The notes beneath the pieces were generated by a model. The model made no database searches. It was not told the origin of the DNA and saw only the letters and a program-made list of their open reading frames with translations. The translations under genes were made by a program, and so were the position numbers. From positions 1 through 64,000 of the IMG/VR virus record IMGVR_UViG_3300044638_001843: DNA of 64,000 nt; one strand, written 5' to 3'. The DNA is from a virus. Positions 543 through 63,338 of the stretch are shown here, piece by piece. Position 1 is the first letter of the stretch; each line of letters opens with the position of its first letter.

Positions 543-560
543 AACCTAGTATATAGCTAG
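543..560 (+). promoter_or_regulatory. Candidate promoter, shared 18-nt motif (copy 1)
   Basis: AACCTAGTATATAGCTAG matches the sequence at 4771 in 17 of 18 positions. Both copies sit between genes, just after a terminator or stop codon and upstream of a new gene run. TATATA could serve as a -10 element, but no good -35 is visible. The following AT-rich stretch 561-615 has several CCTAGG repeats and TTACTATAGTATTAA, a second possible start element. This could be a host or phage polymerase promoter. Confidence 0.4.
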
Positions 561-623
561 GGGTTAAACCTAGGTATTATTATTACTATAGTATTAATAT
601 TACCTAGGTATACCTAGGAGTAT

Positions 624-4069: not shown

Positions 4070-4772
4070 AAAGATTCCTGTTGGTAATGCTGGATTTGTA
4101 CGGCTTGTTGATTTTATGGGTAGTGATCTATCCGTAGTCAATGCAGCTAGAGTTTCCTTTAACAAGGAAAGCTCTTGGGAATATGGTGATATGGGTGGTA
4201 TGCACTTATGTGACAAGGATGTTAGGTTGATTAACTATCTAGCCAAGCATAACCACTGGACTCCATTTGCTCATACTTCTCTTACATTCCACATCAAAGC
4301 ACCTATGCCAATCAGGACTCAGTTCTTCAAGCATAAGGTTGGCTTTGTTGAAAATGAAGTATCTCGTCGTTATGTAGATGATCAACCTGAGTTCTTTACA
4401 CCTGAGTGGTCGTATCGACCTGAAGGTTCTGTAAAGCAAGGTAGTGGTGAATATGTTACTACTGAGGATTACAATACAGCTTGGGCTGTATATCAAGATG
4501 CAATTACTGTAGCTAACAATGCCTACAATAGTTTGATTAAGCTTGGAATTGCACCTGAACAGGCACGCTTTGTGCTACCACAAGCTACTTATACTGAGTG
4601 GTATTGGACTGGATCGTTGTCTGCTCTAGCTCGATTCTATTCTCAGCGTATTAATAAGCATGCTCAGAAAGAAATTAAAGTCTATGCTGAAGTTATTGAT
4701 GCTCTTATTCCCAGTCTAATGAAGCATTCGTGGGATGCTTTGACTATGAAAAGTTGGATTAATTCCCAGTAA
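4056..4772 (+). CDS. thyX: Flavin-dependent thymidylate synthase ThyX, 238 aa
   Basis: ThyX methylates dUMP to dTMP using methylene-tetrahydrofolate and FAD. The sequence has the family core: VVNAARVSFN near residue 27, LAKHNHWTPFAHTSLTFHI near 63-80, and the signature region RTQFFKHKVGFVENEVSRRY near 87-106. The usual RHR of the signature is KHK here. The C-terminal PQATYTEWYWTGSLSALARF matches the substrate-binding helix of the family. Length is normal. It begins 14 bp inside the preceding gene. With the RNR, deaminase-like protein and kinase elsewhere in the window it supports dTTP supply during replication. Confidence 0.93.
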   Translation: MQSDKKIPVGNAGFVRLVDFMGSDLSVVNAARVSFNKESSWEYGDMGGMHLCDKDVRLINYLAKHNHWTPFAHTSLTFHIKAPMPIRTQFFKHKVGFVENEVSRRYVDDQPEFFTPEWSYRPEGSVKQGSGEYVTTEDYNTAWAVYQDAITVANNAYNSLIKLGIAPEQARFVLPQATYTEWYWTGSLSALARFYSQRINKHAQKEIKVYAEVIDALIPSLMKHSWDALTMKSWINSQ

Positions 4773-4788
4773 CCTAGTATATTGCTAG
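4771..4788 (+). promoter_or_regulatory. Candidate promoter, shared 18-nt motif (copy 2), before the RNA polymerase
   Basis: AACCTAGTATATTGCTAG overlaps the last bases of thyX and matches the motif at 543-560 in 17 of 18 positions. TATATT (4778-4783) lies 18 bases after TTGGAT (4754-4759), so a host sigma70-type promoter is possible. It lies 14 bases before the zinc-ribbon gene that is coupled to the RNA polymerase gene, a natural position for an early promoter. Confidence 0.4.
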
Positions 4789-4801: not shown

Positions 4802-4957
4802 ATGGAAAAAGAAAACAAAGAAAACTATAGAATGGATTGTCCACTGTGTGGTTTTGTGGATGGTACACCTTATAAACCTGGTTCTTATTGTTATAATTGT
4901 GCAAAAGATTTGTACAATGACGAATGCAACTATGATAACTGTGAGGATGATGAGTGA
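4802..4957 (+). CDS. Small zinc-ribbon-like protein, 51 aa
   Basis: The product has two CxxC knuckles, CPLC near residue 13 and CYNC near 30, separated by 14 residues. This pattern suggests a zinc ribbon. An acidic tail with two more cysteines follows (NDECNYDNCEDDE). The stop codon overlaps the GTG start of the RNA polymerase gene (GTGA), so the two are translationally coupled. Role unknown; it may act with nucleic acid or with the polymerase, but that is inference from position only. Confidence 0.65.
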   Translation: MEKENKENYRMDCPLCGFVDGTPYKPGSYCYNCAKDLYNDECNYDNCEDDE

Positions 4958-7392
4958 AATTAACTACCTGGAATCAACTAACACCAGAACAAAAAGAATT
5001 TAGAGTAACTAATCAAAAGTTATTTGAAGAAGATCTGCTAGATAATGGTATTGAAAAATACTGGAAGGAGTATAACCGTGCCGTCGATGAAGGAAAGCCT
5101 GAGCAATTACTACTTGAAAGCGCAGTTATTCATCTTACACCTTTCTATCAAAAGTGGATTGACACATGTTCTAATAACCGCAAGTCGCCTGATTGGTTAG
5201 CACCATTACTTTGTGTTGGTGCAGCTAAGATGGCAGACATTACTATTAGAAATGTAATGCGCTTATTCCTAACTAGGAATACCATCCAAAGCTTTGATGA
5301 TACAATGGGCATTCCAAGCAATGCACCAGTAGCACAACAAGTAGCTAAGCTTATTGCTGATGATGTTATTAACATTGTATCCTATCAACAAGCAAAGAAG
5401 AAGTTCTCAGAAGATTGGAGAAAGCAATCCAAGTTCATTAAGAACTGGACAATCAAGCGGTGCAAAGCATTTACTAAAAAGGTTGGATCTATTCCAAAGC
5501 TAAAGGCTAAGGAAAAGGAAGACCTTGGGCATAACATGCTACGCATTGCTCTATCCAGTGATATCCTAGTAAGTAGGGTACATTGGAATGGAAAGAATCG
5601 TAAGTCATTACTTGTTTGTTTTGCTCCTTGGATTCTCAAGGAACTAAGCAAGCGACATGAATTACTAGAAGCAGCATGTCTTGTATATCGTCCTATGATC
5701 TGCCCACCTATCCAGCACACAGCAAAGGAAGATGGTGGTTTCTTATCTCCCTGGATCCGTAAGAAGATGATCAAGCGATATCATCCTGTTGGTGCAAACC
5801 CAAAGGATTGGGACTCAAGGCCAAGCGAGTTAGTTCTCCGTGGTCTTAATGCCCTCAGCCATACTGAGTGGTCAGTAAACAAACAAGTCTATGATGTAAT
5901 GAAGACTATGTTTGAGAATGACTACAAGCTTGCTAACCTACCTGCATTTACCTTTAAGGATTATGCATTCAGTAGGCCATACCCGGAGGGAGGGACAAAG
6001 GAAGAGCAAGCTAAGTGGATGCAGGAATCTAATGAAGCGTGGGGTGAGTGGTATAAAGAAGAACAAGCTAGAAGTAGAATGATTGTAAGACTACAGCTAG
6101 CTAAGAAGATGCTAGACTGGGGTTTCTTCTACATGCCATACACACTAGACTTTAGAGGTAGAGCCTACTCAGTATGTGAATTGCTATCACCTCAAGGTGT
6201 AGACTTTGATCGTGGACTTGTTCACTTTGCTTTACCACGCAAGCAGACACCGCGTGGTTTGTTCTGGTTGAAGGTACACCTAGCAAACCTATTCGATCAG
6301 GATAAGATTCCATTTGAAGATCGTGTTAAATGGGTAGATGATAATGCTGAAATGCTTATTGCAATAGCAGCTGATCCCTATTCAAACAAGCAATGGATTG
6401 ATGCTTCAAAGAAAAAGAATAAATCATTCCAACGTCTTGCTGCTATCTTTGAGTTTGCTCGTACCGATGGTATGACACAGCTCAATATTCAAATGGATGG
6501 TGCAAATAATGGTGGTCAACATTGGTCTGCTATTATGCGTAATAAGAAACTTGCTGTACTTACAAACCTAATTGATTCAGAATCTCCTCAAGATTTGTAT
6601 CAGTTTGTTGCAGATGCCAGTACAGAATACATGAAGCAACACCAAGAAAATAATTGGTATCAGGTATTCTTAATTAACTGGGATAATAAACTACCAAGGG
6701 CTGTAGCCAAGCGTCCTACTATGTGTGATGCTTATGGTCTTACATTCTATGGTATGCAGAAGTATGTAAAGCAAGAAGGCCATGTTGATTGGGTTCCAAA
6801 GGAATCCAGGGGTGGTGCTGTAGTAGAACTAAGCAGAGCTATTCAAGCTGGCTTGGGAGAAACTATGGAGTCACCCAACAAGGGTAAGGAATGGTTGCGA
6901 TCTGTTGCAGACATTCTAAACAGTATCAATAAACCTTTTGTATGGACAACTCCCAGCGGGTTTGAAGTACATCATGTGTACAATCAAGTGTTAGAAAGGG
7001 TTTCCTATGCCGAACTATTCAACAGGCAGCAGTTGGTATTCTCAACTGTTACGGAAGATCTCGACGGCAAGGCACAATATCTGGCGATTTCTCCAAACTT
7101 TATCCATGCGCTAGATGCAGCTCATATGTTTATGACAATTGGAGAAATGCTTAATCAAGGTATGTCTGCTTTCTCAATGGTACATGATTCCTTTGGAACA
7201 TATGCACCTGATGTTGATGAGATGCACTCCATACTAAGAGAACAGTTTGTTAAAATTCATCAGGAGAATCAGCTTGAAAACCTCAAAGAAGAAATTGAAA
7301 AGAAATACAAAATCTTCCTTCCCGACTGTCCACAACCAGACGGAGAGTTCGATGTTTCCGAAGTACTCGGATCTAAATATTTCTTTGCCTAA
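4954..7392 (+). CDS. T7-like single-subunit DNA-dependent RNA polymerase, 812 aa
   Basis: This is the phage RNA polymerase (T7 gene 1 type; T7 has 883 aa) that would transcribe phage genes from phage promoters. All catalytic motifs are present in the usual order: the T/DxxGR motif as DFRGR at 399-403, motif A D515 in DGANNGGQHWSA, motif B R582-x3-K586-x7-Y594-G, TTPSG at 665-669, and motif C VHDSFG with D745. The protein ends GSKYFFA, recalling the conserved FA terminus of T7 polymerase. Translation starts at GTG 4954, coupled to the preceding zinc-ribbon gene. Its end is overlapped by the next gene by 41 bp. Confidence 0.97.
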   Translation: MKLTTWNQLTPEQKEFRVTNQKLFEEDLLDNGIEKYWKEYNRAVDEGKPEQLLLESAVIHLTPFYQKWIDTCSNNRKSPDWLAPLLCVGAAKMADITIRNVMRLFLTRNTIQSFDDTMGIPSNAPVAQQVAKLIADDVINIVSYQQAKKKFSEDWRKQSKFIKNWTIKRCKAFTKKVGSIPKLKAKEKEDLGHNMLRIALSSDILVSRVHWNGKNRKSLLVCFAPWILKELSKRHELLEAACLVYRPMICPPIQHTAKEDGGFLSPWIRKKMIKRYHPVGANPKDWDSRPSELVLRGLNALSHTEWSVNKQVYDVMKTMFENDYKLANLPAFTFKDYAFSRPYPEGGTKEEQAKWMQESNEAWGEWYKEEQARSRMIVRLQLAKKMLDWGFFYMPYTLDFRGRAYSVCELLSPQGVDFDRGLVHFALPRKQTPRGLFWLKVHLANLFDQDKIPFEDRVKWVDDNAEMLIAIAADPYSNKQWIDASKKKNKSFQRLAAIFEFARTDGMTQLNIQMDGANNGGQHWSAIMRNKKLAVLTNLIDSESPQDLYQFVADASTEYMKQHQENNWYQVFLINWDNKLPRAVAKRPTMCDAYGLTFYGMQKYVKQEGHVDWVPKESRGGAVVELSRAIQAGLGETMESPNKGKEWLRSVADILNSINKPFVWTTPSGFEVHHVYNQVLERVSYAELFNRQQLVFSTVTEDLDGKAQYLAISPNFIHALDAAHMFMTIGEMLNQGMSAFSMVHDSFGTYAPDVDEMHSILREQFVKIHQENQLENLKEEIEKKYKIFLPDCPQPDGEFDVSEVLGSKYFFA

Positions 7393-7681
7393 TAATATTA
7401 CATATCCAACAATCCCTCAGTTAGTTTTAATTAGTTGGATTGATGCAGTAACTATTGGTGGTGAAGGCTGGCTTGATAGAAACAAGGCTTTGAATTATGC
7501 TAAAGATCCCTTGCCTATCATGGTTACAGTAGGTTTTATATTACATGAGGATGCTGATCACTTTGCAGTAACTAATACTGTAGGTCCAGATGAAACAGCA
7601 CAAGTTAATAAAATCCCAAAGCGAATGATTGTTGAGATTCAGGATTTAAATTATGGCAGAACAGAAGAACATAAGACGTAA
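7352..7681 (+). CDS. Hypothetical phage protein, 109 aa
   Basis: I place the start at ATG 7352, where GGAGAG lies 7 bases upstream within the end of the RNA polymerase gene. The middle reads PQLVLISWIDAVTIGGEGW, then GFILHEDADHFAVTNTVGPD and IPKRMIVEIQDL. That layout (a W-D segment, a GxxxxEDxxxxxxT segment, then IPxxxIxxI) occurs in small uncharacterised phage proteins. No enzymatic motif is visible. Confidence 0.65.
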   Translation: MFPKYSDLNISLPNNITYPTIPQLVLISWIDAVTIGGEGWLDRNKALNYAKDPLPIMVTVGFILHEDADHFAVTNTVGPDETAQVNKIPKRMIVEIQDLNYGRTEEHKT

Positions 7682-10239: not shown

Positions 10240-10313
10240 AGAAGGGTGGCTGAAGTAGATAGAGCGCATGCCTTATAAGCGTGAATATGTGGGTGCAACT
10301 CCCGCCCCTTCTA
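10240..10313 (+). tRNA. tRNA-Ile (anticodon TAT)
   Basis: A complete cloverleaf folds: acceptor AGAAGGG / CCCTTCT with discriminator A, D stem GCT/AGC, anticodon stem CATGC/GCGTG with loop CTTATAA, and T arm GTGGG-TGCAACT-CCCGC. The anticodon is TAT, reading ATA. The T loop is slightly unusual. No CCA is encoded. It is followed at once by a terminator. Confidence 0.85.
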
Positions 10314-10316
10314 TTT

Positions 10317-10343
10317 AGGCCAAGGTGTTCTTGGCCTGTTTTT
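10317..10343 (+). terminator. Intrinsic terminator after tRNA-Ile
   Basis: AGGCCAAG (10317-10324) pairs with CTTGGCCT (10330-10337) around loop GTGTT, followed by GTTTTT. It separates the 8563-10313 run from the next gene at 10364. Confidence 0.8.
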
Positions 10344-10363
10344 ATCTCATAGGAATTAATGCA

Positions 10364-10918
10364 ATGCCTAATTGGTGTATGAATGAAGTGCGTATTTCCG
10401 GGCCGTACTCGGAAGTACATGAAATACTAACTAAGTGTGGTTACTACAGTAATCAAGAGTTCAAGATGAATAGCTTTATCCCAATGCCGGATGAAGTTCG
10501 TAATACTGTATCACCCATGCCAAAGACTGAAGAACAAATCCTAGCAGAAGCAAAGAAGTATAACTGGCTTGTATCAGAAGTTAACGATGCGCTTAGCCGT
10601 GCTATTACTTCAGAAGAAGCAGAACGGTACAATGAAAACTACCGTAAGTATGGTGCGCATGATTGGTATGATTGGGCTATGAAGTACTGGGGTGTCAAGT
10701 GGGATCTATCAGATGTTTCTTGGGTTGAGGTTGAACTACCTGATCCAGGAGATGCAAAGTCAACAGATGATGCAACCTTTACCATTAACTTTGATACTGC
10801 CTGGGGTCCCCCAGATATGTTCTACCATTTCCTTTCTAAGAATTACCCTAACTGCCATATCTCATGGTTCTACCATGAACCAATGATGGAATTTGCTGGA
10901 TACCTAAACAATGAATGA
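10364..10918 (+). CDS. Api92-like (MPNWC) phage protein, 184 aa
   Basis: The N-terminus MPNWCMNEVRISGPYSEV is the hallmark of a phage family that includes the Api92-like ferredoxin-fold proteins (DUF1281 type): a start of the form MPNWCxNxLxI. The C-terminal part also fits (DWYDWAMKYWGVKWDLSDV, then NFDTAWGPPDMFYHFL and WFYHEPMM). An in-frame GTG lies inside the terminator upstream, but ATG 10364 gives the conserved start. Molecular function is not known. Confidence 0.82.
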   Translation: MPNWCMNEVRISGPYSEVHEILTKCGYYSNQEFKMNSFIPMPDEVRNTVSPMPKTEEQILAEAKKYNWLVSEVNDALSRAITSEEAERYNENYRKYGAHDWYDWAMKYWGVKWDLSDVSWVEVELPDPGDAKSTDDATFTINFDTAWGPPDMFYHFLSKNYPNCHISWFYHEPMMEFAGYLNNE

Positions 10919-11339
10919 ACTAATTGCTCAACAGTGGGTTACTGCTCTGCGTAGTGGAGACTATAAGCAAGGTAAGAGTGTACTACATAATCAAGATACT
11001 AACACTTATTGCTGCCTTGGTGTTCTCTGCGACTTGTATGTGCAAGAAAACAACAATAGAGATTCTTATTGCCAACAGCGTATGCTTAGTGATACCTCAA
11101 TTGTTACATGCTTTGGTGATTCTACTGGTACTTTGCCAAGCGATGTTCGTATTTGGGCAGGTATTGGAGATGACAATGGACAGTTTAAGTACAACAAACC
11201 CATCCCAGGTCGTGATACTTCATACTTTAGGGATGAAGATACTTGCTTGCTCACCAGTATGAACGATGGCGAGTACGGCCACGACTTTACCTTTGAAGAA
11301 ATTGCAAACATTATTGAAGAACAATGGAGACAGCTATGA
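10911..11339 (+). CDS. Phage protein of the YCCLGVLCDLY type, 142 aa
   Basis: The start overlaps the preceding stop by 8 bp. The protein has an N-terminal WVTALRSGDYKQGKSVL, then TYCCLGVLCDLY near residue 33-44 and a C-terminal LLTSMNDG...DFTFEEIANIIEE. This arrangement is found in small proteins of many tailed phages, whose function is unknown. The cysteines in the centre could bind a metal. Confidence 0.65.
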   Translation: MNELIAQQWVTALRSGDYKQGKSVLHNQDTNTYCCLGVLCDLYVQENNNRDSYCQQRMLSDTSIVTCFGDSTGTLPSDVRIWAGIGDDNGQFKYNKPIPGRDTSYFRDEDTCLLTSMNDGEYGHDFTFEEIANIIEEQWRQL

Positions 11340-11572
11340 ACTTCGGTATTGATCCTAATAATCGGGATCGCTGTGTTATCCAGGCCCCCTGTGATCTTGC
11401 TTATATGCAGAAGCAGCGTGATCTTCTTTGGAAGATCTACTCTGATTCCCTGCTCTCTAGTGATGAAGATCTTGCTTATCTCCGTACCACTATCGGTTTT
11501 CTAGATCACTTTATTCACGGCGTATACTTTGTAGCTGCTGAATATCACACCGCTAACAGGAGTATTTATTAA
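11336..11572 (+). CDS. Hypothetical protein, 78 aa
   Basis: I choose ATG 11336, which overlaps the previous stop as ATGA and has GGAGA 7 bases upstream, over ATG 11324. The product starts MNFGIDPNNRDRCVIQAPCD and continues as two helices (LAYMQKQRDLLWKIYSDSLL). No domain recognised. Confidence 0.55.
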   Translation: MNFGIDPNNRDRCVIQAPCDLAYMQKQRDLLWKIYSDSLLSSDEDLAYLRTTIGFLDHFIHGVYFVAAEYHTANRSIY

Positions 11573-11914
11573 ATGCTTATTAAGTCAAATGAAAAGTTTG
11601 TCAAGAAGTTTAAGATTCCCTTTGTTTATTATCATCTTTGTATATCTTTTAAGTTAAACAACGAACAAGATCTTTATGACCCTGTTGATTGGATCATGGG
11701 AAAAGATTGTACCTACGGTAAAAATAAGAAACGCGCTAGTGCTTTCAAGAAGTTTAAGCTTCTTGAACCCGACACTGGATATAATCTTATGACTCACGAA
11801 AGAGATCTTACTTTCTTTCAATTAACAAAAGAACAGATACGGTATCTTGTCAACACTTATAAGAATAGTCCATTCCGTATTACTTATCTTGCTTGTGATA
11901 TAGATGACGAATAA
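11573..11914 (+). CDS. Hypothetical protein, 113 aa
   Basis: The gene begins directly after the preceding stop, with AGGAG 10 bases upstream. The protein is basic in the middle (YGKNKKRASAFKKFKLLE) and has an N-terminal FKIPFVYYHLCISFKL beta segment. It ends CDIDDE. Family not recognised. It overlaps the next frame by 11 bp. Confidence 0.55.
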   Translation: MLIKSNEKFVKKFKIPFVYYHLCISFKLNNEQDLYDPVDWIMGKDCTYGKNKKRASAFKKFKLLEPDTGYNLMTHERDLTFFQLTKEQIRYLVNTYKNSPFRITYLACDIDDE

Positions 11915-12137
11915 ATCTAATACATTGGTATCAATGCAATTGTTAGGATTGCGTTTGGCTATCATGGTACTCAGACCGTTGCTGTATCTGGTAGCAAGTA
12001 TCACTTGGCGGTTGGATGAGGTATACTACCGAATGAATGAATTGCGCAACCGTCTAAATAAAAAGGTAGAGCAACACAAAGCAAACAAAGCACTAGATCG
12101 CATTGCACAATTCGATCAGGAGAATGGATTACTATGA
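11904..12137 (+). CDS. Small membrane-associated protein, 77 aa
   Basis: Residues about 11-34 (MQLLGLRLAIMVLRPLLYLV plus a few more) are hydrophobic with two arginines, consistent with an amphipathic or transmembrane helix. They are followed by a charged helical tail (LRNRLNKKVEQHKANKALDR). The layout is like the 9974 product. Function unknown. Confidence 0.55.
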   Translation: MTNKSNTLVSMQLLGLRLAIMVLRPLLYLVASITWRLDEVYYRMNELRNRLNKKVEQHKANKALDRIAQFDQENGLL

Positions 12138-12322
12138 AACAAGAAACACATCATACAATTTTAGTACTACCGGATGGAGAAACTTGGTCTACTATTTCTG
12201 GATGTTCTGTTCTTGTTATAACAGACAATCAATTTAAAGACCTATGTGAAGACAGAATTGATGCAAGAGATTTAATGGCTACTCAAGTAATCTTACTTAG
12301 TCATCTTAAAAATCTTGAATAA
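12134..12322 (+). CDS. Hypothetical protein, 62 aa
   Basis: It overlaps the previous stop as ATGA. The sequence MKQETHHTILVLPDGETWST begins with a beta strand and a DGETW turn; SGCSVLVITDNQF follows. It looks like a small folded domain of unknown role. It is the last coding frame before the tRNA cluster. Confidence 0.55.
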   Translation: MKQETHHTILVLPDGETWSTISGCSVLVITDNQFKDLCEDRIDARDLMATQVILLSHLKNLE

Positions 12323-12328
12323 TTAAAC

Positions 12329-12397
12329 GAGATGGTAGCCCAAGTAGAGGCAGGTAGACAATACCACACAGTGTAGGTTCAAGCCCTACCCATCTCA
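12329..12397 (+). tRNA. tRNA-like element with atypical anticodon arm
   Basis: A perfect 7-bp acceptor stem (GAGATGG / CCATCTC, discriminator A), a D arm (GCC/GGC) and a canonical T arm (GTAGG-TTCAAGC-CCTAC) are present. The 21 bases between D and T arms do not form a normal 5-bp anticodon stem. The best fold is GGT-AGACAAT-ACC, with no U at position 33. The D loop also lacks GG. It may be a decayed tRNA, a tRNA with a non-standard arm or a tRNA mimic. It lies first in the tRNA cluster. Confidence 0.5.
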
Positions 12398-12401
12398 ATA
12401 T

Positions 12402-12475
12402 ATCTCCATAGCTCAACTGGATAGAGCAACAGCCTTCTAAGCTGTAGGTTGCTGGTTCAAGTCCAGCTGGGGATG
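12402..12475 (+). tRNA. tRNA-Arg (anticodon TCT)
   Basis: A clean cloverleaf: acceptor ATCTCCA / TGGGGAT, D arm GCTC/GAGC, anticodon stem ACAGC/GCTGT with loop CTTCTAA, and T arm GCTGG-TTCAAGT-CCAGC. It reads AGA, the dominant Arg codon of the long late genes. No encoded CCA. Confidence 0.93.
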
Positions 12476-12476
12476 C

Positions 12477-12558
12477 GGCTCCGTGGCGAAACTGGCATAC
12501 GCAGTAGACTTAAAATCTGCCGCCGCAAGGCGTGGGGGTTCGATTCCCCCCGGAGTCA
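12477..12558 (+). tRNA. tRNA-Leu (anticodon TAA)
   Basis: Class II tRNA with a long variable arm (CGCCGCAAGGCG): acceptor GGCTCCG / CGGAGTC, anticodon loop CTTAAAA, and T arm GGGGG-TTCGATT-CCCCC. It reads TTA. It starts one base after tRNA-Arg ends, so the cluster is probably processed from one transcript. Confidence 0.93.
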
Positions 12559-12560
12559 TC

Positions 12561-12633
12561 GCCCTCTTAGCTCAGTTGGTAGAGCAGTTGACTTTTAATC
12601 AATCGGTCGTAGGTTCAAATCCTACAGGGGGCA
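12561..12633 (+). tRNA. tRNA-Lys (anticodon TTT)
   Basis: Acceptor GCCCTCT / AGGGGGC, D arm GCTC/GAGC, anticodon stem GTTGA/TCAAT with loop CTTTTAA, and T arm GTAGG-TTCAAAT-CCTAC. It reads AAA. It ends 19 bases before the primase-helicase start codon. Confidence 0.93.
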
Positions 12634-25054: not shown

Positions 25055-28000
25055 ATGAATCCACTATCATATCCTCAAGTATTAGCTTTAAGCAAGGGTT
25101 TAAACTTTTTCTATATTGAAAACAATAACGTAAGCCCTGTATCATTTTCACCAATTAGTAGCCGTATACTTTTATCTGATAGTGGTGTTCTTCTTAGAGA
25201 AAAGACTTCTATTGTAGAGTTTAAAGCATGGGAGCAGTCTTCATTTATTGGCCGACAAGTATTTGGTTTAGGAAATCCACCAAAGGTTTTAGGAGAGTAC
25301 CCCGCTGTCTATGGAATTAAAAAGTGTAATGATAGTTCTATTAGAAATATACTAAAGTTTAGTTACTTTGATTACTTCGGTGATCCTGGATTTTTTAATA
25401 GACCTACATCAGAACAGGGTTTCTTTTTCAATACCGAAGAAGGCGAGCTTGCCCCAGAACCTTGGATGCAGGTCGAAAAAAACTATGTTAACTCAGATCA
25501 TATAGTTGGTGTTTATGCGTTTACAGACACACTAAATAATATTAAACCTTTTAATTCCGAAGGAATTCCAACAAATACTTCAGAATTAGATTATCACTGT
25601 ATTGCTATCCTTGCTTTAGGTAATAGAGAACGAGCCACAGAAGATGATGGATTCTTTGTAAATGTTGTAGGTGGTGGTGATAACTGGCTACTCCAAAAAG
25701 CTAATGGAACTATTGACTCAATTGGTGTTAGAAGCAACGAGTGTGATAGTTTTATTTTTGACCCCTTCAATGGACCAGTCTTTCCATCTGGTAGATTAAA
25801 TAATATTAATGAAGACTATGAAGATGTAAAACCAGCTAACTATAGTGCAAGAATTACTTCCATGGAACCTTATGGTATTTGGCTACCAAATTCGGTTGCT
25901 CCCAATACTCCAATTACTTTAGATAGTTTAAGTTGGATTTTTGCTGGAGGTCCAGAAGAAGCCCAAATATTTAGAGCACTAGATGCAGATGTTTATACAA
26001 ATGCTATTCAAAGATGTGATGATGAATTCTCTATTGATAACGTATATCCTTTCTATCCTTACTCTAAAACAACTGGCACAAATAACGAAAAATTTAATGA
26101 TTTAGGTGGATTAGAAAGTACATTAATAATACTTAAAAATACTACAACAGACTACTGGGAACAAGGTTTAGCTGGAACCATGATAACAAGCGGTCAAGGT
26201 GGATTTAGAACAGACAGAAAATCAGCAAATCAAGTATTATTAAATTCGTTATCTACAAAAAATAAAGAGTTAAGTTTAGGTTATACTAGTAATCAAGAAG
26301 GCGGTGCATCTCCATATGAACTAGTTGATACACAAAGACGAGCTGCTGCTTCTCCAGCTGGTGGCTTTGGCAGTATTAAACCAATTGAATTTTATAAAGC
26401 ACCATATTTTGACTTTGTTACAAATGAAGTTAAAGGATCCAGCAAACAAAGAATAAGTTGTGGTTTCTTTTCTGCTCTCCATATTACTCCTTCTGGTTTA
26501 ATAGATGCCCCACAAAACGCATATTCAACAACAGATGCTTCACCATTTTCTTTAGATATTACTTTACTAGTTAGAAATACTTATAATAACCGTGAAATAA
26601 ATATACAAAATCCAAACCTAGTAGATAAGAGTTCAGCTACAGCTACTGATTTAGGATTTGCTAGTGGTTCTTTTAGTTCTACTATTAATGCAGCTATTGC
26701 TGGAGAAGACATAAAAAAGGTATGTGGATATCAAGATGAAATTGCTTTCATAAATTCAGGAAATGCACTACACTATGCTGGATTTAATACTAATTTAGCG
26801 AGTGTTATTAATGGTGATGAGGTTGTTGATGTTGCTCTAAATAAAAATACAAACGCTAGTTCACGAAGATGGTTAGTAAAAATTATTTCAAGTGGTGGCG
26901 TTGAAGTTATTGATGGGGTTACTGGCCCAAGTCAAATAGGTGATTTAGTAGCAAACAAACCACAACCTTCAACTGCCAAGGGTGGATTTGTAAGTGTTGA
27001 TGCTGGATTTGATCATGCTATAGTTTTAAGAGAAGATGGGGCTGCCTTTGCCTGGGGTAATAATACATTTGGTCAGACCAGTGTACCTGCTGGATTATTC
27101 TTCCGGGAAGTAAAAGCACATGGTAACTATAGCTGTGGCATTACCACAGATAATACATTAAAGGTTTGGGGATCTTTGCAAGCAACAATTAGTGACGTAA
27201 GAAACTGTTGGGTAAGTGAATCCTTTATTGTAGTAGAGAAGTATCAATTTGCCTTTGCATCTACCTATACTGTAGTAGGAGATGCACCAGCATTTGTTAC
27301 TTCTTTTTTAAACAACTACAATTTTAATCCTCGTATAAGAAAACTTGCTGTTACACCTACTTATTTAATAGCCGAAAACTCAGAAAAAGAAAATTATATT
27401 GTAACAGCCGGTTCAAATACAAATGGAATTCTTACTGTACCAAGTACATCTTTATTTCAAGATTTAAGATTATTGCATGCAGCTAAAAACTATTCTTTAG
27501 TTGTTGGTGAAACAGGAATTAAAGCACCACTAAAAGAAGTTTATACAAAAGATACCGATGAAGATGGTATTGATGATGTTACAGTTGATTATGTGTCAAT
27601 ACATCAAGCAAGTGATGTAGCCCTTGTAACTTTAGATTCTAACGGATCTGTCAGAATTTTATATGTAGATTTAAATGCAATTGGTTCAAATACTACTATC
27701 GGATGGAATGGTTTAGCTTACTTTGGTAAGGATGAATTAATACCATTTTTAACTAGAGATGACGGAACAATTCCAAGTATTGACAATGAAGGATTTGTTA
27801 AAGTTGTAGCAGCAGGAGGATATGGTAGAAGACCTTGCGTTGTTTGGTTATTACATGAAACTGGTAGTCTATATGGATTAGAGTTAACATCTTCTGTTAA
27901 ATATGATTCTTTTAATCAGCTATATAAAACTAATCCACTAGAAGTAAACTTTGGAAAACCAAACAACGGTATTGATTTATCTACTCAATACTCTGTTTGC

Positions 28001-28954
28001 TATCCAAATAATACCTTTCAACCTAATGCTACTGGTGGATCTAGATTGTTTATCAAGCACGCTTTAAACAAGATTCCAAAAGATTCCAGTGGTAATAGAT
28101 TCCCGGTTATAGATATCTTTGGAAGTTATGCAACTTATGGTGGTTGTGTTTGTGCTAATACCAAATATACTGGAACTGAATCTGAAGAAATTCCATATCA
28201 AGAACCAGAAATTGTTTTCTTCCCTCCTGTTGGTTGTGGTTGGGGGCAGTTACAAGAAGATATGTTATCAAAAATTCAACAAAGAAAAGCTGTATTTAGT
28301 TCTACTGGTAATGCTACATATATTGATAATCCTAATTTTAATAGAGAACTATACAATGAAGTTTTTGGTATTGTAGACGAATCAAAAGGACCAACAACAA
28401 TAACGTATGCTCCACCAAGAAATGTATTTTATGCTAGAGCTCCCCGTAGTGCTTCTACTGCTGCGGCATCAGTTACTGTTGGCTCTGGTTTATGTGTTTT
28501 AGGTAGTAATGGTAATGTAACATTCTTAGGTACAACTAAAGCATTTGTAAACTATGATGCTCCAAGTAATCTAAGTACATTTAATTCAGATCTAACTTCT
28601 AAAGGATTTACTAAAACTAATTCTTCATTTTCCCCATCGCTATTAAGTACTATTTTCAATAGATTTACACCTGATGTTGGTGTAAGTAGATTAAAGTTTC
28701 CAAAACCAGAGTATGCAAACTCTTTAGAAGAGTTTAATACTCCAGTTGATTTTGATATTGATACTGGTGTAGCTGGTGGTGGTGCTATTATTATCCCTGG
28801 TTTAGATTTTTCTCTTTCTCCTCCAGGATCACAGATATTCTTCTTAGATCGTGAAACAACACAAGCACAAGATTTTAACTTAGACAGTTCTGTAGGTTCA
28901 GTCGAAAAACAACTACACAATACTGGTTTAAAACTTATTAAAAAAATAAAGTGA
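25055..28954 (+). CDS. Large structural/adhesin-like protein with RCC1-type repeats, 1299 aa
   Basis: The N-terminus (LSYPQVLALSKGLNFFYIEN) shares a layout with the start of the next large protein, which suggests a common virion-attachment segment. Residues about 560-950 contain beta-propeller blades of the RCC1 kind: FVSVDAGFDHAIVLREDGAA then FAWGNNTFGQTS, KAHGNYSCGITTDNTLKVWG, HAAKNYSLVVGE, and VAAGGYGRRPCVVWLLHETG. RCC1-like propellers bind proteins or glycans, so this is probably a host-contact or fibre protein, although no phage family is recognised. The C-terminal third is Gly/Ser/Pro/Asn-rich. GGAGA precedes ATG 25055. Confidence 0.65.
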   Translation: MNPLSYPQVLALSKGLNFFYIENNNVSPVSFSPISSRILLSDSGVLLREKTSIVEFKAWEQSSFIGRQVFGLGNPPKVLGEYPAVYGIKKCNDSSIRNILKFSYFDYFGDPGFFNRPTSEQGFFFNTEEGELAPEPWMQVEKNYVNSDHIVGVYAFTDTLNNIKPFNSEGIPTNTSELDYHCIAILALGNRERATEDDGFFVNVVGGGDNWLLQKANGTIDSIGVRSNECDSFIFDPFNGPVFPSGRLNNINEDYEDVKPANYSARITSMEPYGIWLPNSVAPNTPITLDSLSWIFAGGPEEAQIFRALDADVYTNAIQRCDDEFSIDNVYPFYPYSKTTGTNNEKFNDLGGLESTLIILKNTTTDYWEQGLAGTMITSGQGGFRTDRKSANQVLLNSLSTKNKELSLGYTSNQEGGASPYELVDTQRRAAASPAGGFGSIKPIEFYKAPYFDFVTNEVKGSSKQRISCGFFSALHITPSGLIDAPQNAYSTTDASPFSLDITLLVRNTYNNREINIQNPNLVDKSSATATDLGFASGSFSSTINAAIAGEDIKKVCGYQDEIAFINSGNALHYAGFNTNLASVINGDEVVDVALNKNTNASSRRWLVKIISSGGVEVIDGVTGPSQIGDLVANKPQPSTAKGGFVSVDAGFDHAIVLREDGAAFAWGNNTFGQTSVPAGLFFREVKAHGNYSCGITTDNTLKVWGSLQATISDVRNCWVSESFIVVEKYQFAFASTYTVVGDAPAFVTSFLNNYNFNPRIRKLAVTPTYLIAENSEKENYIVTAGSNTNGILTVPSTSLFQDLRLLHAAKNYSLVVGETGIKAPLKEVYTKDTDEDGIDDVTVDYVSIHQASDVALVTLDSNGSVRILYVDLNAIGSNTTIGWNGLAYFGKDELIPFLTRDDGTIPSIDNEGFVKVVAAGGYGRRPCVVWLLHETGSLYGLELTSSVKYDSFNQLYKTNPLEVNFGKPNNGIDLSTQYSVCYPNNTFQPNATGGSRLFIKHALNKIPKDSSGNRFPVIDIFGSYATYGGCVCANTKYTGTESEEIPYQEPEIVFFPPVGCGWGQLQEDMLSKIQQRKAVFSSTGNATYIDNPNFNRELYNEVFGIVDESKGPTTITYAPPRNVFYARAPRSASTAAASVTVGSGLCVLGSNGNVTFLGTTKAFVNYDAPSNLSTFNSDLTSKGFTKTNSSFSPSLLSTIFNRFTPDVGVSRLKFPKPEYANSLEEFNTPVDFDIDTGVAGGGAIIIPGLDFSLSPPGSQIFFLDRETTQAQDFNLDSSVGSVEKQLHNTGLKLIKKIK

Positions 28955-43922: not shown

Positions 43923-46900
43923 ATGGCTATAGATCCTAACATTTTAAAAATTGGCGGTAACCGTGGTTTGAATTTAAATGTAACTCCAGGCTCTGTTGCA
44001 GAACCCGGTAGAACAATTGGAGGTAGATTCCAGGTAGGTGCGCCCCAAACAGCTGTTGGTCCTAGCGGAGATGAAGCTTTATATGCTAATCTTTCTATTA
44101 TTGCTGGTGGTGTTGTAGACTCAGCCCAGAATATTGCACAACTTGCCGAGTTTAACAATAATGTTAGCTGGCAAGATTGGTACGCTGATAGTTGGGAAGG
44201 TGATAAAAGCAAAAGAAGAGCAATACTTGATAATACAGAATTAAATTCAGAAGAAAAAAGAAATCAATTAATTAAGTTATTAGATGAAGCTCCCAGCAAT
44301 GGTGCAAATAAAGCAAGAAAAGCACAACTTTATGGTGATTGGTTAGACCAAGATCCAGATTCAACAGGAATTTTTCAATCAGCCTATACTACCTTTCAAC
44401 AAGAAACACTAACACTATCACCAGAAGATAGACTTAGACAATTTGAAACTACTTTTGGATACGAATTATCTTATGGAAATGAACAAGCTGTTTCTGCCAG
44501 ACTAGGATATGAAAGAGATGTATTAAATTTTAATAATGAGAATGCCATTACACAGGGTAAGCTAGCTTTAGAAAGAAATAGCGGATATGTAAATGATGTT
44601 TTAGATGCTATGCTTTCAGAAGAACTTGGTGATAACATACCAATGCAAGAACTTAGAAGACAAGCAGAAGCCGAAGGATCATTACCACAGTTTGAACAAA
44701 CCCTCGGTCAGGCTCAGTTAATCAGAGAAAATCGAGCATCAGCAGATGTTATTCAAAGTGTTTTATTAAGCAATCTTAATATTAACTCAAGCTCTGAAAT
44801 CTTTTCTCCGTTTGATCAAACAATGTCTAACTTGATTACAGCTAAATCAACTCAATTGTCAAGAGAGTATGGTTTAAAAATGGCTAAAGCTACTGCGGTT
44901 CAGGAGGAAACAAATAAAGCTTATACTAGAATGTCATTTAGCCAGACTCCATTAAATGTAGATCCTAGTAAAAATGGAGCTGAAATAGCAGCTTTACTTG
45001 CAACCATAAATCAACTAGATGGCAAAGATCGCAACGAAGCAATGGCAGCATTAATAAGTTCATTAGTAACAACCTCAGAAGCAAACAGATTTAATTATAA
45101 TCAAGCAATAACATTTAGCACTGATTTATTTATTAAGGTTTGGGAAACGGCAACACCATCTCAAAGAAGAATATTAAGCCAAATGGGTTTTGTTCCCACA
45201 CCACCAGCAATTTCTCCTGAAGATTTAAAAAAGATATACGATCAACCAAGTTTTGCATCAACCAATAGAGATAAGATTGAGCTTGCTGTTACTGGTGTTT
45301 TATCTTCTAATGATAGATTTGCAAAGGGTGTTTCCGAACAACTAACTGCTGCTACTGCTCCATTTGAAACATTGCAAATTGAAGGTCCTCAATCAGCTTA
45401 TGGTTTAGCTGTTGCTTTAGATGCTACGGTTAAACAACTTGGTATGAGTGGCAATTCTCCAGCATTTTTAAGACTAGAAGCTTTGCGATCTAGTAATACA
45501 AGCAATAGACTACGGGGTGAAAATGGATTGCAAATCTGGACACTTGGTTTAGGATTACCTCCAGAAGACTATGAACTATTTATTGCAGCTAATACCGATG
45601 GTGTTGCTAGAACACCAGAAATGAATGCTGTCATTACTAAGTATGGAAAACTTCCTTCTTTAACAGAAGAAATGAAAGCTATATCAGACTCTGTATCCAA
45701 AGGTGATAAGCTAACTCAAAGTTTAAATAAAAAAATAAATGAAACCATAGATAGTGTTGTAAAAGCTGTAGCAAAAACGGGAGGACCTACTGTTACTGGT
45801 GTGTTTGACAAAAACCATTTTAAAGATTTAACTACAGCAGCCAATAATTTTCCTGAAAGATCGGGAGTTGTAGATAGGCTTGTACATGATAATCCTGCTT
45901 TAGGTTCAATTGCACAAAAAACTGTAGAAGCTGCTAGTAAATTTACTTATGGTAAAACAATAGGTAATAATCAGTATAGTTTTGAAATACCTCAAGCAGC
46001 TAATGGAATTCCCTTACCAAAACAACTAACTGAAAGACTAAAAGAAATAGCGGATCTGCGGCAAAAAGAATTAGATGCCTTATTAAAAGAATCTCCAATT
46101 GCATACAAAGCTAAACTAAATGATATTAGGGCTGAACTCAATACGTTGGCTGTTCAAGAAATGGTATTAATGGAAGCTTCTAACAATCCGTCTATAGTAG
46201 GAAACAAACCAGAAGAGTTAGCATCACAGCAAGCTGCATTAAGGCAAGTGGTAGAGACTACATTAAGAACTCAAGATGAGTATGCTGCTCTATTTAGATC
46301 AAGTAACATAAGTCCAAAAGAACCCTTTTTATCGCCTATCATGGGTGATAACGATGTTGCAACAATTCAATTAGTTGATGGAGCAGGTAATACAAATACA
46401 GAAAACTATTCAAGACTTGTGTATAGAGTAACTAATGGAACGTCTGATAGCAATTCACAGTTTTTACCAACATTACAAAAAGCATTTACAGCTTTGGGTT
46501 CTAATAATGGTAACGCTCAATTAACAATGGAAACATCAAAACAAGAAATGATGTATTTATTTGCGGTTGCAGATGGCATTGCAGCAAAAGCTACTATTGA
46601 GTCTAAAGGTGATCCTTATGTTATGTTACAAAGAGTACAAACTAGAATTAATCAACTCTTAGTAGGATCTGATTTAAGTTCATATAGACCAACTCTTAGA
46701 AAACTAGTAGAACTTAAGTTAGCTGACAATCCAGAGTTTGGTAAAACAAATGGTGTTAGGTTTATTCCTAGTGATCCAAATGATACATTTGCTAGATTAA
46801 CTGGCACAGCTAAAAAAACTTTAACAGATAAAATGACAGCAGAGCAGAGCAGGCTTGATAGAGTATCTAAGTATTTATTTAAATCTTTAATGCTTCATAC

Positions 46901-48281
46901 GGAAGATAACATAAGAGGTAAGGGAATGGATCTTACCAAGCTACCACAATCAACTTCATGGGGAGGGTCTGGTACGCAAGATTTTATTACTAATGCTGGT
47001 TTGTTAGCTCCATTTAATGTTAGAACACTTATAAACGATGAAGCATCTATTAGTATACGAGATGATGGCAATGCTGTCTTGGGATATTGGGAACAATCTG
47101 GATGGAAAATTCCAGGTAATTCAGAAACAGAAAAACAAACATCTATTGTAGTAGCATTAGCTAATGCTTCTGGTATGCCTGTTAATGTTGATAAAGATGG
47201 TATTGTATCGTTGTATATGACAACCTATGATGATAGTAGAAATCTAAGTTTAGTAGAATTAACAAATGATAACTTTGGATTCATTGTAGAAACCTTAACA
47301 GGATCTCTTTCTACTAATAGGGACTTTACTAATTTCTTAGAAGCTCACCGTACCGTTGAACCAAATAGCACAAACCTAGTAGAAGTTCTATCAACTTGGC
47401 AAGACTATGATTCTTTCTTTGGTAGTAGTAGAGGAAATATCGTAATTCCAAACTATAGAAGTTATGAGGTTGGTTCTTGGAAGACTTTAAACTGGGGAAC
47501 AGACCCAGCAATGGTAGCGGAATCAGGTAATATAATTATTCCAGCAGAGCACGAAAAATATAGAATGCCTATGCTAGCTGTTCCAGATTCAATTCAAGCT
47601 GTTCCTGGTTCTTTTACTGAATCCAATACTATTGAAGAAAATAGAGAGGGTAATCTTCTTTTTGATGATGAGCGTTATATTCCAGGCATGCGCGGCAAGG
47701 AATCTACCTATGCTACTATCTGGCTATTTGGAGAACGCTCTAAAAATAGATTAAGTGAAGCCGCCTTTAAAGAAGATTTAACAAAAATTATTACTTCAGC
47801 TTTAAGTGGCCGGGAACTTAATCCGTCAACTATAGCTAAAATTAATGATTCCGCTAGTAGACTTGCTGGTGGTTCAGATGCAAGATCAAAAACAAATGCT
47901 ATGGTTTTAATGGCTGCTAATGATATTTTAGGTAGTGGGTTTAAAATACTACCAGATGATTTATTTGCTGTAGGTAATGGCATATTTAGTGATACTGCAT
48001 CAAACAGAGATACATCAACATTTAAAATTAACTTTGGTAAAGATGCTAAAGTTACACAACTAGTTTCAACAGAAGATGGAACACCATTTCCAGTTAATTA
48101 TAGGATTCCCTTTGATCCTAGTATGTTTCCTGTAGAACTAACTGGTTCTTTTGCTAGCCAAATTCAATTATCAAATATGCAAAGACAACTTGATTTCATT
48201 AGAGAAAACTTTATCCACGACCGCGGCCATCCTAATTATGGCCATCCTTGGATTCACTTTAAGGGAGACAGTAATAAATGA
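43923..48281 (+). CDS. Internal virion / ejection protein, 1452 aa (T7 gp15-like by position)
   Basis: The protein is a long, mostly helical, Gln/Asn/Ala/Leu-rich polypeptide with no signal peptide and almost no cysteine. It begins with a Gly-rich segment (ILKIGGNRGLNLNVTPGSVA), then INNNVSWQDW-like helices. Position after the gp14-like gene and before the two other giant proteins points to the ejectosome. It is about twice the length of T7 gp15 (747 aa). No enzymatic motif was found. GGAGG precedes the ATG; it overlaps the next gene by 4 bp. Confidence 0.65.
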   Translation: MAIDPNILKIGGNRGLNLNVTPGSVAEPGRTIGGRFQVGAPQTAVGPSGDEALYANLSIIAGGVVDSAQNIAQLAEFNNNVSWQDWYADSWEGDKSKRRAILDNTELNSEEKRNQLIKLLDEAPSNGANKARKAQLYGDWLDQDPDSTGIFQSAYTTFQQETLTLSPEDRLRQFETTFGYELSYGNEQAVSARLGYERDVLNFNNENAITQGKLALERNSGYVNDVLDAMLSEELGDNIPMQELRRQAEAEGSLPQFEQTLGQAQLIRENRASADVIQSVLLSNLNINSSSEIFSPFDQTMSNLITAKSTQLSREYGLKMAKATAVQEETNKAYTRMSFSQTPLNVDPSKNGAEIAALLATINQLDGKDRNEAMAALISSLVTTSEANRFNYNQAITFSTDLFIKVWETATPSQRRILSQMGFVPTPPAISPEDLKKIYDQPSFASTNRDKIELAVTGVLSSNDRFAKGVSEQLTAATAPFETLQIEGPQSAYGLAVALDATVKQLGMSGNSPAFLRLEALRSSNTSNRLRGENGLQIWTLGLGLPPEDYELFIAANTDGVARTPEMNAVITKYGKLPSLTEEMKAISDSVSKGDKLTQSLNKKINETIDSVVKAVAKTGGPTVTGVFDKNHFKDLTTAANNFPERSGVVDRLVHDNPALGSIAQKTVEAASKFTYGKTIGNNQYSFEIPQAANGIPLPKQLTERLKEIADLRQKELDALLKESPIAYKAKLNDIRAELNTLAVQEMVLMEASNNPSIVGNKPEELASQQAALRQVVETTLRTQDEYAALFRSSNISPKEPFLSPIMGDNDVATIQLVDGAGNTNTENYSRLVYRVTNGTSDSNSQFLPTLQKAFTALGSNNGNAQLTMETSKQEMMYLFAVADGIAAKATIESKGDPYVMLQRVQTRINQLLVGSDLSSYRPTLRKLVELKLADNPEFGKTNGVRFIPSDPNDTFARLTGTAKKTLTDKMTAEQSRLDRVSKYLFKSLMLHTEDNIRGKGMDLTKLPQSTSWGGSGTQDFITNAGLLAPFNVRTLINDEASISIRDDGNAVLGYWEQSGWKIPGNSETEKQTSIVVALANASGMPVNVDKDGIVSLYMTTYDDSRNLSLVELTNDNFGFIVETLTGSLSTNRDFTNFLEAHRTVEPNSTNLVEVLSTWQDYDSFFGSSRGNIVIPNYRSYEVGSWKTLNWGTDPAMVAESGNIIIPAEHEKYRMPMLAVPDSIQAVPGSFTESNTIEENREGNLLFDDERYIPGMRGKESTYATIWLFGERSKNRLSEAAFKEDLTKIITSALSGRELNPSTIAKINDSASRLAGGSDARSKTNAMVLMAANDILGSGFKILPDDLFAVGNGIFSDTASNRDTSTFKINFGKDAKVTQLVSTEDGTPFPVNYRIPFDPSMFPVELTGSFASQIQLSNMQRQLDFIRENFIHDRGHPNYGHPWIHFKGDSNK

Positions 48282-51045: not shown

Positions 51046-54000
51046 ATGGGCAAATGCAGCGAAGAGGTTTTAAACAAGATACGAGAAGAACTAAAGTCAA
51101 GTGGTGCAGAACCTGAAACAATTAATACTGTTGTTTCTTTATTTGAAAAGTCTGTTGAAACCGATGCATCTGCCGACTTGGTATCAAAAACCCTCACTAA
51201 TTCTTTATTTACAACTTCAGATATTGAGAAGCTTAATAAACTAATTTCAAAGTTTAGAAGAGCTAAGGGTGATATAACTAAAGTTACTAATGACGATCTG
51301 TCTGAATTTACTTTCTTATGGTCTAAGTGGCAAGCTTACATGGAAGGTAAAGTACTTATTGCCGAGGGATTCAAAACAAAGGAAACTCTAGAACTAAAGA
51401 AAAAACTAAGAAAGCTAGAAAGTAAGTTCCTTAGTGAAGGTAAAATTAAAGAAGCAAGAACACTTAATAGATTAATTAGAAAAATAGAAGCAACCGAAAA
51501 GCAGAATAGAAATGCTGGTAGATTTATTAGGAACATAGAGTTTGAAGGTAGACTAGAAAAAACTAAAGCTTTACTTAATGCTGTTAATGCGTCTTATGAA
51601 TTTGAGGCTTCAAACAATGAGACAATTAAAAAACTAAACAATACTAGATTTGCTTTAGTTGGTGAGCTTCAAAGAGAAACAGACCCAGAAAAGAAAAAAG
51701 AAATTCAAAAAAAGATTGATGAGAATGTCAAAGAAACTACCACAAAAACAAATGAAATCTTATTAAGTAAGGCATTTAGAAAGCAACAGAAAGCAGACTC
51801 AACTGGTCAAATATCTCTATATGAAGCAGTTAAAGAACTTAGTTCTGAGATTGATAAGAACTCATCTACATACCGCCTTGCTCTAAATGAACTGATTGAT
51901 TCTCGTAATACCCTAGAACATGATAAGCAATTGTTTGAATTAGCCAAACAGGGTATTCAGGTGCTTAATACAAGTAAGGCTTTGTTGGATGCTATTAGAA
52001 AAGAAAAGGGCGGCAAAGTTACTGTAGCAGAACTAAAAGCAGTAATCGGAGATTTGGGTGTTTCCATTGATCAATTAATTATTGATACCCACAATAAAGT
52101 TAATCCAAAAGAAAAAGCAAAGTCTTTAAAGGGAAGTACTGAACTAGATAACAATACACTATCTTCTATCTTTAATACATTAGCTAATCTAGCAATAGAT
52201 CAGGCTTTTTCAAATGGCATTGCTTTAGGTTTTGAGTTTTCACCAGAAGATCAAATGTTAGCAGATAATCTAAAAGCAGCTAGTAATAACATGGATATTG
52301 AAAACGAAGACCAGGTAAATAACGATACTGTTATGCCAAAGGCTAGAACAGCCAGCAAAGCTAAGGAAGAAACCCTTAGTACTAGAGAACAAAAAATTAA
52401 AGAGTTTAAAGAAGGCACTGACTTTAAGAAGCTTTATGTAATGTTAAAGCAAGCCTTAGAGCGTGTAGAAACACTGAGAAAACTACCACAGTTCTCAGAG
52501 CATATATCAAGAGATATGGTTTTAGCAGCCCTAGGACCACAGTTACACCTACTAAATCCAGACATTTATTTTAGTAGTGCTGTTGTAACTGCAACATCTG
52601 TAGCACGACTAACAGCTCCGGCTCTATCTAGCTTGCCTGTACCGCCAGCATTAGAAAAAGCTTTTGCTAATTTAGGTATGGATCCAAGAGCAATTAAGGG
52701 TTTACCTGAAGTAGCAAACCCAGATGAATACGCAAGAAACTGGGATAGAGTTATTTCATTTGATATTGAAACAAAGGGTGATGAGATCTTTATGATTTCT
52801 ATTAGACACTCAGCAACAGAAGAAAGACTTGATCCTTCTATTGAACAGCTTGTTTCAAATCCAGCCAAAGGTTCTATTGGTAACTTTACTGCTTATTCAA
52901 AAGAAGATCTACTGCGATTCTTACGATCTTTAGAATTAATGCAAAATATGGGATGGAAGGTTGCTGGATTTAATAATGTTGGATTTGATTTAGCTTCTAT
53001 AGCTAAATCTATTGGTACAGAAGAAGCATCAAATCTAGCCGCTCGGGTTGCTTTAAGATCATATGATATGTACGCTTGGATTAAGATGCAATATGGAGCT
53101 ACTGTTAATTTAGACAACCTTGCAACAGCAACACTTGGTCGAGGAAAGATTAAAGGCGTAACTGGCACAAGTGTAGTAGATCTTTTACTTGCAGCAAAAA
53201 CAGAAGAAGAAACTTCAAAGGCACTAGAGTATTCTAGAAACGACTCTGATTTAGTATTTGAGATTATTGAAAACCTAAGATCAAACCCATCACGAAACCT
53301 TACTGTTAATGTAAACAATGTAGATAAGAGTACTGTAAATTTAAGTTTAAGTAATCCACTTCAAACATGGCAACTAGCTATTTTTCACAGTAATACAAAT
53401 AGTAACTTTAATGGATTCTTTTTAGAATACAATGCAGCAGGAGTACAACCAGCAATAAATAACTTTGTTGGTGAATCTAGTAATGCTGAAAGAACATCTA
53501 GACTGCTATTTAATACAGAAGCAGTTAGAGATCAGTTGCTATTGCATATGTCTTTATCTTTAAGAGCAGATCCAGATACAGCTGTAGTTGGAGAAACTTT
53601 AATTAAAGAAGCCGAAAGACTTACTAAAAAAGAACAAGAAGTTCTTGTTACTCAGATGAAGTTAATGAGAACACATAGGCAAGCTGGTATTGAAGCAAAG
53701 AAAGCTTTACTTGGTTCTGATGGAGAACCAAAGTTTATTCTTTCAATCATTGAAGGTGAACCAAAATATATTGAAGCAACTACCAGTACAACAGCTGAGT
53801 CTCAGTATGAAGCAGCAGTAATTGAAGCATTTAATCAGTTTTACTTAGATATGGCAGGGGATAGAGTACCAGCCGATCAGATAGTTTCTCGGATGAATGA
53901 AAAGATTGTTGAGTATGGATTTAGAGAAAAGACTGGATCAGAAACCCAAGCAGACTACATTAAAGCTTTTATTAACGAAGTAATCTTGCCATCAGTTAAA

Positions 54001-63153: not shown

Positions 63154-63240
63154 ATCGACTTAGGGGTCAGAAATTTCTGAGGGGTTAGGTAAGGAATTAG
63201 AGGGTGGATATCCCCCTCTATCCCCCCCAATCAAACAAAG

Positions 63241-63276
63241 CAACCAGAGAACTAATAATTCTCTGGTTGTTTTTTT
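63241..63276 (+). terminator. Intrinsic terminator after the ejection-protein operon
   Basis: CAACCAGAGAA (63241-63251) pairs perfectly with TTCTCTGGTTG (63259-63269) around a 7-nt loop and runs into TTTTTTT. It closes the late transcript. Positions 63154-63240 hold no gene; a C-rich tract (ATCCCCCTCTATCCCCCCC) lies there. Confidence 0.93.
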
Positions 63277-63328
63277 CCCAGGTAGATTCCCTACCTATCC
63301 CTATCACTGGGGTTCAGTGAATCTAGGT

Positions 63329-63338
63329 CCTATAGACC
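63329..63338 (+). promoter_or_regulatory. CCTATAGACC element before a tiny gene, candidate phage promoter core
   Basis: CCTATAGACC lies within GGTC-CTATA-GACC, a small inverted repeat, 15 bases before ATG 63353. CCTATAGACT occurs at 110-119 in the leader of the 140 gene. T7-type promoters end in CTATAG at the start site, so this could be the core of a promoter for the 4954 polymerase. Two occurrences are weak evidence. Confidence 0.25.

Follow-up and report, generated by a model that had tools for sequence, protein, structure and literature searches.

The genome of an uncultured short-tailed phage, represented by IMG/VR record IMGVR_UViG_3300044638_001843, carries, judging from sequence, three RNA-polymerase-like proteins: a T7-type enzyme of 812 residues, a smaller enzyme of 625 residues, and a giant protein of 4035 residues. 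We propose that these proteins could support a three-step, largely self-sufficient transcription plan running from the giant through the 625-aa enzyme to the 812-aa enzyme, and we put the probability of this reading at about one half. A preliminary description had counted two single-subunit polymerase-like proteins; it missed the 625-aa gene, which starts 21 bases before the end of the window (the whole stretch of DNA analysed, 64,000 nt, identical to bases 1–64000 of the record).

The record is 69066 bases long, and its last ~860 bases (68208–69066) repeat its start (1–860), with differences; two strains may be mixed at this join. Because of this end repeat, and because a 99% identical genome with its ends elsewhere was assembled across the junction, spanning the giant gene, the junction and the 812-aa polymerase gene, the map is taken to be circular, with a length of ~68.2 kb. 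T7-like core genes are present for primase-helicase, family-A DNA polymerase, exonuclease, portal, scaffold, major head, tail and terminase. A tail-like protein of 1299 aa with RCC1-type repeats is encoded at 25055–28954, and four tRNA genes (Ile, Arg, Leu, Lys) are located at 10240–12633. The GC content rises from ~0.37 to 0.50–0.55 downstream of the giant gene, in a region (record 63153–67500, window 63153–64000) that contains the 625-aa polymerase gene; outside this region it is about 0.33–0.46.

The first of the canonical enzymes lies entirely within the window:

4954–7392, plus strand: 812-aa T7-type single-subunit RNA polymerase with a GTG start (PF00940, phrog_414, invariant catalytic residues)

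The earlier claim of a complete T7-like polymerase at this position was borne out. The protein matches PF00940 with E=2.6e-83, above the curated cut-off, and phrog_414 with E=3e-158. The residues of the DxxGR motif (399–403, DFRGR), D515 of motif A (DGANNG), K586 and Y594 of motif B, and H744-D745 of motif C are all invariant in 15 aligned sequences. By its PF00940 domain and this catalytic set the protein classifies as T7-type, albeit with an identity of about 28% at best to the nearest phage records. A search for a repeated late promoter for this enzyme found none. Its stop codon is overlapped by the probable TTG start of a conserved gene (7385–7681), which is kept downstream of the polymerase in all relatives aligned.

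Only the beginning of the second canonical enzyme falls inside the window:

63980–64000, plus strand: first 21 bases of the gene for a 625-aa single-subunit RNA polymerase (family profile, invariant columns)

The gene occupies record positions 63980–65857, ending outside the window, and a homologue of about 590–640 aa is located immediately behind the giant gene in each of the nine relatives that were read. When searched alone against families, the 625-aa sequence of this phage gave no match. The profile of its family picks up T7 and mitochondrial RNA polymerases at ~1e-15 (T7: E=5e-16) with the motifs in register, and also the 812-aa polymerases; in addition, four members of the family match PF00940. 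An alignment of ten sequences contains the invariant residues R173, D284, G289, K338, Y346, H562 and D563, and thereby includes the R, D-x4-G, K-x7-Y and HD that make up the catalytic set of single-subunit polymerases. With the R of DxxGR, D-x4-G, K-x7-Y and HD in canonical order, and with profile similarity to solved members, the protein is assigned to the single-subunit family from its sequence. Since both the catalytic set and the profile matches point the same way, two canonical single-subunit RNA polymerases are counted besides the giant; both occur in nine out of nine relatives with records that are long enough. A distant genome of ~70 kb (contig IMGVR_UViG_3300037634_000921, hereafter L084) has just one detected canonical RNA polymerase. 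The PHROG nearest to the 625-aa family is phrog_414, rather than the N4-like family. The counterpart of N4 RNAPII is likely to be the 625-aa enzyme and not the 812-aa one.

The giant protein and two genes preceding it are strongly depleted of cysteine:

43923–48281, plus strand: candidate ejection partner of 1452 aa, no cysteine (cysteine depletion; no family match)
48278–51034, plus strand: candidate ejection partner of 918 aa, one cysteine (cysteine depletion; no clear family match)
51046–63153, plus strand: giant of 4035 aa, putatively ejected, containing an exonuclease and polymerase motifs in rearranged order (family alignment, cysteine depletion)

Judged by the other genes of the phage, about 39 cysteines would be expected in the 4035 residues of the giant, which has 1; together, the three proteins have 2 in 6405 residues. 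The ejected proteins gp15 and gp16 of T7 and gp50, gp51 and gp52 of N4 contain none, while 12 and 13 are present in the polymerases of T7 and N4, respectively, that work solely within the cell. Ejection of the giant is supported by this near-absence of cysteine, as it is common to N4 gp50–52 and T7 gp15–16; cysteine depletion and gene position likewise support a putative ejection set of the giant with the 918- and 1452-aa proteins. Comparison of the latter two with T7 gp15/16 and N4 gp51/50 (hhalign) gave no signal. The sole cysteine of the giant is residue 4 (within 51046–51063), and all full-length relatives of the close family have one at residue 3–6.

No match to the whole giant was found in Pfam, PHROG and phage databases, and no relative was confirmed in a bacterial and archaeal genome collection. 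The polymerase-like region that had been claimed for this protein left no trace in Pfam, PHROGs, a PDB sequence search or tblastn, but invariant polymerase-type motifs are present in the family alignment, in a rearranged order. This alignment comprises 14 giants, the distant L084 protein being considered separately or added. The following elements were identified in the giant:

52741–53280, plus strand: DEDDy family-B type 3'-5' exonuclease domain, aa about 566–745 (catalytic set, PDB profile, AlphaFold)
54556–54561, plus strand: HD, aa 1171–1172, probable motif C (invariant in 14 giants)
54802–54825, plus strand: motif A, D1253-x4-G1258, aa 1253–1260 (family alignment, N4 vRNAP alignment)
55129–55176, plus strand: motif B, K1366-x7-Y1374-x2-G1377, aa 1362–1377 (family alignment, N4 vRNAP alignment)
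55759–55797, plus strand: AIN block, aa 1572–1584, AINTANRTPLKIR (T7 RNA polymerase: AINIAQNTAWKIN) (hhalign E 0.0013, in register)
55909–55914, plus strand: GR (R1623), candidate DxxGR motif (R kept in every giant, that of L084 included)

The first of these elements is the exonuclease. Residues D573, E575, D648, Y729 and D733 are invariant in the 14 giants, the region is modelled confidently by AlphaFold, and a PDB search with its profile hits the corresponding domain of family-B DNA polymerases (E=5.3e-5), to which the FDIET, NGxxFD and YxxxD segments align. With Exo I DxE, Exo II D and Exo III YxxxD, the domain has the sequence signature of the DEDDy type. The giant differs from family-B DNA polymerases in that no polymerase domain of that family was seen in it. 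The L084 giant lacks the exonuclease motifs. Elsewhere in the protein (58810–58824, aa 2589–2593) a zinc-protease-like HExxH is found, also present in three relatives and replaced by EExxH in the others.

The near-invariant columns of the giant, 149 in number, contain each of the polymerase-type motifs HD, D-x4-G and K-x7-Y a single time, all inside 204 residues. When L084 is included (about 20% identity), 14 columns remain invariant, among them D1172, D1253, G1258, K1366 and Y1374; the H of HD is replaced by Q in L084 (QD), with the D kept. The block containing motifs A and B aligns in register with the virion RNA polymerases (vRNAPs) of the N4 family, from D559 through K670/Y678, at a weak E=0.0015. 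When 63 segments along the giant were compared with these vRNAPs, the top three were those over the A-B block; the 625-aa family likewise gave its best scores with these segments, at motif B. The AIN block ('AINxxQxTxWxIN'; AINQMQNSGLKLN in the giant of relative L052) aligns in register with T7-type polymerases by profile alignment, at a weak E=0.0013. Anomalous runs aside, column shuffles reached a maximum of 21.1 for the A-B block (observed 31.6) and 18.0 for the AIN block (observed 33.2). The anomalous runs, six overall (2–4 per 200), scored about 135 with only 12–34 columns aligned and were treated as numerical artefacts; all remaining shuffles stay below the observed score.

As a complete family-B-type proofreading exonuclease lies ahead of these motifs, the exonuclease-polymerase part of the giant could also be read as a polymerase for DNA repair or end processing that accompanies the genome, and not as a transcriptase. 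This appears improbable, since G stands at position D+5 of motif A and, in most members, S or C after the HD. Both features are RNA-polymerase-type, whereas family-A DNA polymerases have E at these positions. Moreover, in profile comparisons the A-B block is closest to the vRNAPs and the 625-aa RNA polymerases, and not to the family-A DNA polymerase of the phage itself.

The order of the motifs in this region would be HD-A-B-AIN-GR, as AIN and GR come after motif B, but before motif A elsewhere in the family, where the order is AIN-GR-A-B-HD; simple rotation of the canonical order does not produce the one in the giant. The position of A-B ahead of AIN-GR is the firmer part of this assignment from the alignment, and HD is likely, but not certain, to be motif C. 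A simple rotation would result if D1428 (LIDxxIG) were motif C, making the giant a plain circular permutation A-B-C-AIN-GR, a variant of our main proposal. Although D1428 is invariant in the 14-member alignment, it is Q in L084, whereas the HD aspartate is kept; it also lies just 62 residues from motif B, a distance that ranges from 159 to 281 across the other single-subunit enzymes in the comparison, and the HD hallmark is missing. We consider this variant highly improbable, and prefer the order that begins with HD.

Two AlphaFold runs did not resolve the polymerase region of the giant or yield a polymerase fold, Foldseek with the first model gave no match at E <= 0.001, and profiles of the A-B and AIN-GR blocks found no polymerase among PDB chains. 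N4-type virion RNA polymerases have the canonical order TxxGR-A-B-C, and the giant falls outside that family because its motif order is rearranged. We tentatively suggest, at somewhat less than even odds, that the giant represents a new class of virion RNA polymerase: single-subunit-type, with a permuted C-A-B arrangement and AIN/GR behind it, fused to a proofreading-type exonuclease within an ejected protein of 4000 aa, and heading a cascade of three polymerases. No permuted (C-A-B) palm was encountered for the single-subunit DNA-dependent RNA polymerase family in the literature searched.

Elements with a possible role in transcription were found upstream of both canonical polymerase genes:

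544–562, plus strand: promoter-like ACCTAGTATATAGCTAGGG at the start of the operon leading to the 812-aa polymerase (conserved in nine relatives)
4772–4788, plus strand: second promoter-like copy, before the small gene that precedes 4954 (16/17 identical to the copy at 544)
63241–63276, plus strand: terminator-like hairpin and T run after the giant gene
63502–63525, plus strand: gene-end hairpin in the region between the giant and 625-aa genes
63852–63871, plus strand: gene-end hairpin with a GAAA loop, before the 625-aa gene

A motif common to 543–560 and the gene before 4954 had been noted in the preliminary description, and is real: ACCTAGTATATAGCTAG at 544 and the copy at 4772 match at 16 of 17 positions. 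In nine relatives the element recurs as CCTAG[TC]ATATAGCTAGGG, about 4.1–4.5 kb upstream of the 812-aa polymerase. Good copies in the record are those at 544, 4772 and 68815 (in the repeated end), with a partial copy at 66333; the late region of the record contains no good copy. The element at 544 is followed by an AT-rich palindrome (565–620) flanked by CCTAGGTA, and similar structures are seen in relatives.

The genes of the GC-richer region terminate with CCTAGG-type hairpins, found also at record positions 65872, 66260 and 66895. In relatives, the loops of such gene-end hairpins include GAAA, GCAA and UUCG types, and in many cases another small inverted repeat lies behind the hairpin. N4-type vRNAP promoters are short DNA hairpins with 3-base loops. 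A role of the CCTAGG hairpins as N4-like hairpin promoters is disfavoured, as several of their loops are GNRA or UUCG and most copies lie 5–21 bases past a stop codon.

A scan that detected T7 A1–A3 as positive control identified no sigma-70-like site between the giant and the 625-aa gene, either here or in seven of the ten genomes scanned. In the first 7.5 kb, such sites are fewer than expected. These data bear on a rival explanation, in which the giant is an ejection protein only, with a polymerase-like region that is vestigial or has another role, and the early transcripts, including those for the 625-aa and 812-aa enzymes, are made by host RNA polymerase. This is how T7, with a single RNA polymerase, has its early genes expressed. 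The T7-like genome plan is in keeping with this explanation, as are the failure of standard searches and AlphaFold to recover the polymerase region, and host promoters may deviate from the scanned consensus. Nevertheless, we judge it rather unlikely, although clearly worth weighing: catalytic-type residues are strictly conserved across about 20% identity, the scan found no sigma-70-like promoter ahead of the 625-aa gene in this genome and most of its relatives, and such sites are scarce in the first 7.5 kb.

For the three-step plan that we favour, the sequence itself shows the two canonical polymerases, the exonuclease, the motif set of the giant, the order of the genes, the scarcity of cysteine and the conserved promoter-like element; ejection, the activity of the giant, the assignment of promoters to polymerases and the timing are what we infer. 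An injected single-chain polymerase with host-independent early transcription is known from N4-like phages. Like the N4 vRNAP, the giant would be packaged and then ejected, together with two partners, and its rearranged polymerase domain would transcribe an early region just past its own gene (63.2–68.2 kb on the circular map). The rearranged motifs next to a proofreading-type nuclease suggest that the giant may start its own transcription upon cell entry. The early region would yield the 625-aa minimal RNA polymerase, the presumed RNAPII counterpart, which, by reading CCTAGTATATAGCTAGGG-type promoters, would bring about production of the 812-aa polymerase. Finally, this T7-type enzyme would transcribe the T7-like replication and virion genes. 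The hybrid T7/N4 plan put forward earlier finds partial support, as the giant looks ejected, has N4-vRNAP-like motifs A and B, and is followed by a polymerase gene in a region where no sigma-70-like promoters were found. It is changed in that there are three polymerases, the RNAPII counterpart is likely the 625-aa enzyme, and the domain in the giant is reordered and lies behind an exonuclease.

The closest system in its working is phage N4 (Schitoviridae), with its virion RNA polymerase gp50 and RNAPII gp15/gp16 (PMC4496689, PMC12633501). Common properties are a cysteine-free-type giant ejection protein of 3500–4000 aa (here a candidate) with a polymerase domain (likewise a candidate here) in mid-protein, a resemblance in motif A (DxxxNG) and motif B (KxxxTxxxYxxGxxGI), and a second, small phage RNA polymerase, of 673 aa in two chains in N4 and 625 aa in one chain here. 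In contrast to N4, the giant has a rearranged motif order and a preceding exonuclease, a third polymerase of T7 type is present, and the virion and replication genes are T7-like. The phage therefore departs from the Schitoviridae plan of a vRNAP with a heterodimeric RNAPII, as its small polymerase is single-chain and a third polymerase is present. With T7-like phages (Autographiviridae and kin) it shares an RNA polymerase gene ahead of T7-like replication and virion genes, but it has a genome of 68 kb versus about 40 kb, and two canonical polymerases and a giant versus one polymerase in T7.

A permuted palm, with C before A and B, is found in the RNA-dependent RNA polymerases of permutotetraviruses and birnaviruses (PMC4666646). 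Their likeness to the giant is in the C-A-B order only, without homology; these enzymes are RNA-templated, come from RNA viruses and belong to another polymerase lineage. If active, the giant would, as far as we found, be the first single-subunit DNA-dependent RNA polymerase with permuted motifs. In that case, its fused exonuclease raises the question whether the protein proofreads as an RNA polymerase or works on the entering genome as a nuclease-transcriptase. The lineage appears to combine T7-like replication and virion genes with an N4-like strategy and a very divergent giant.
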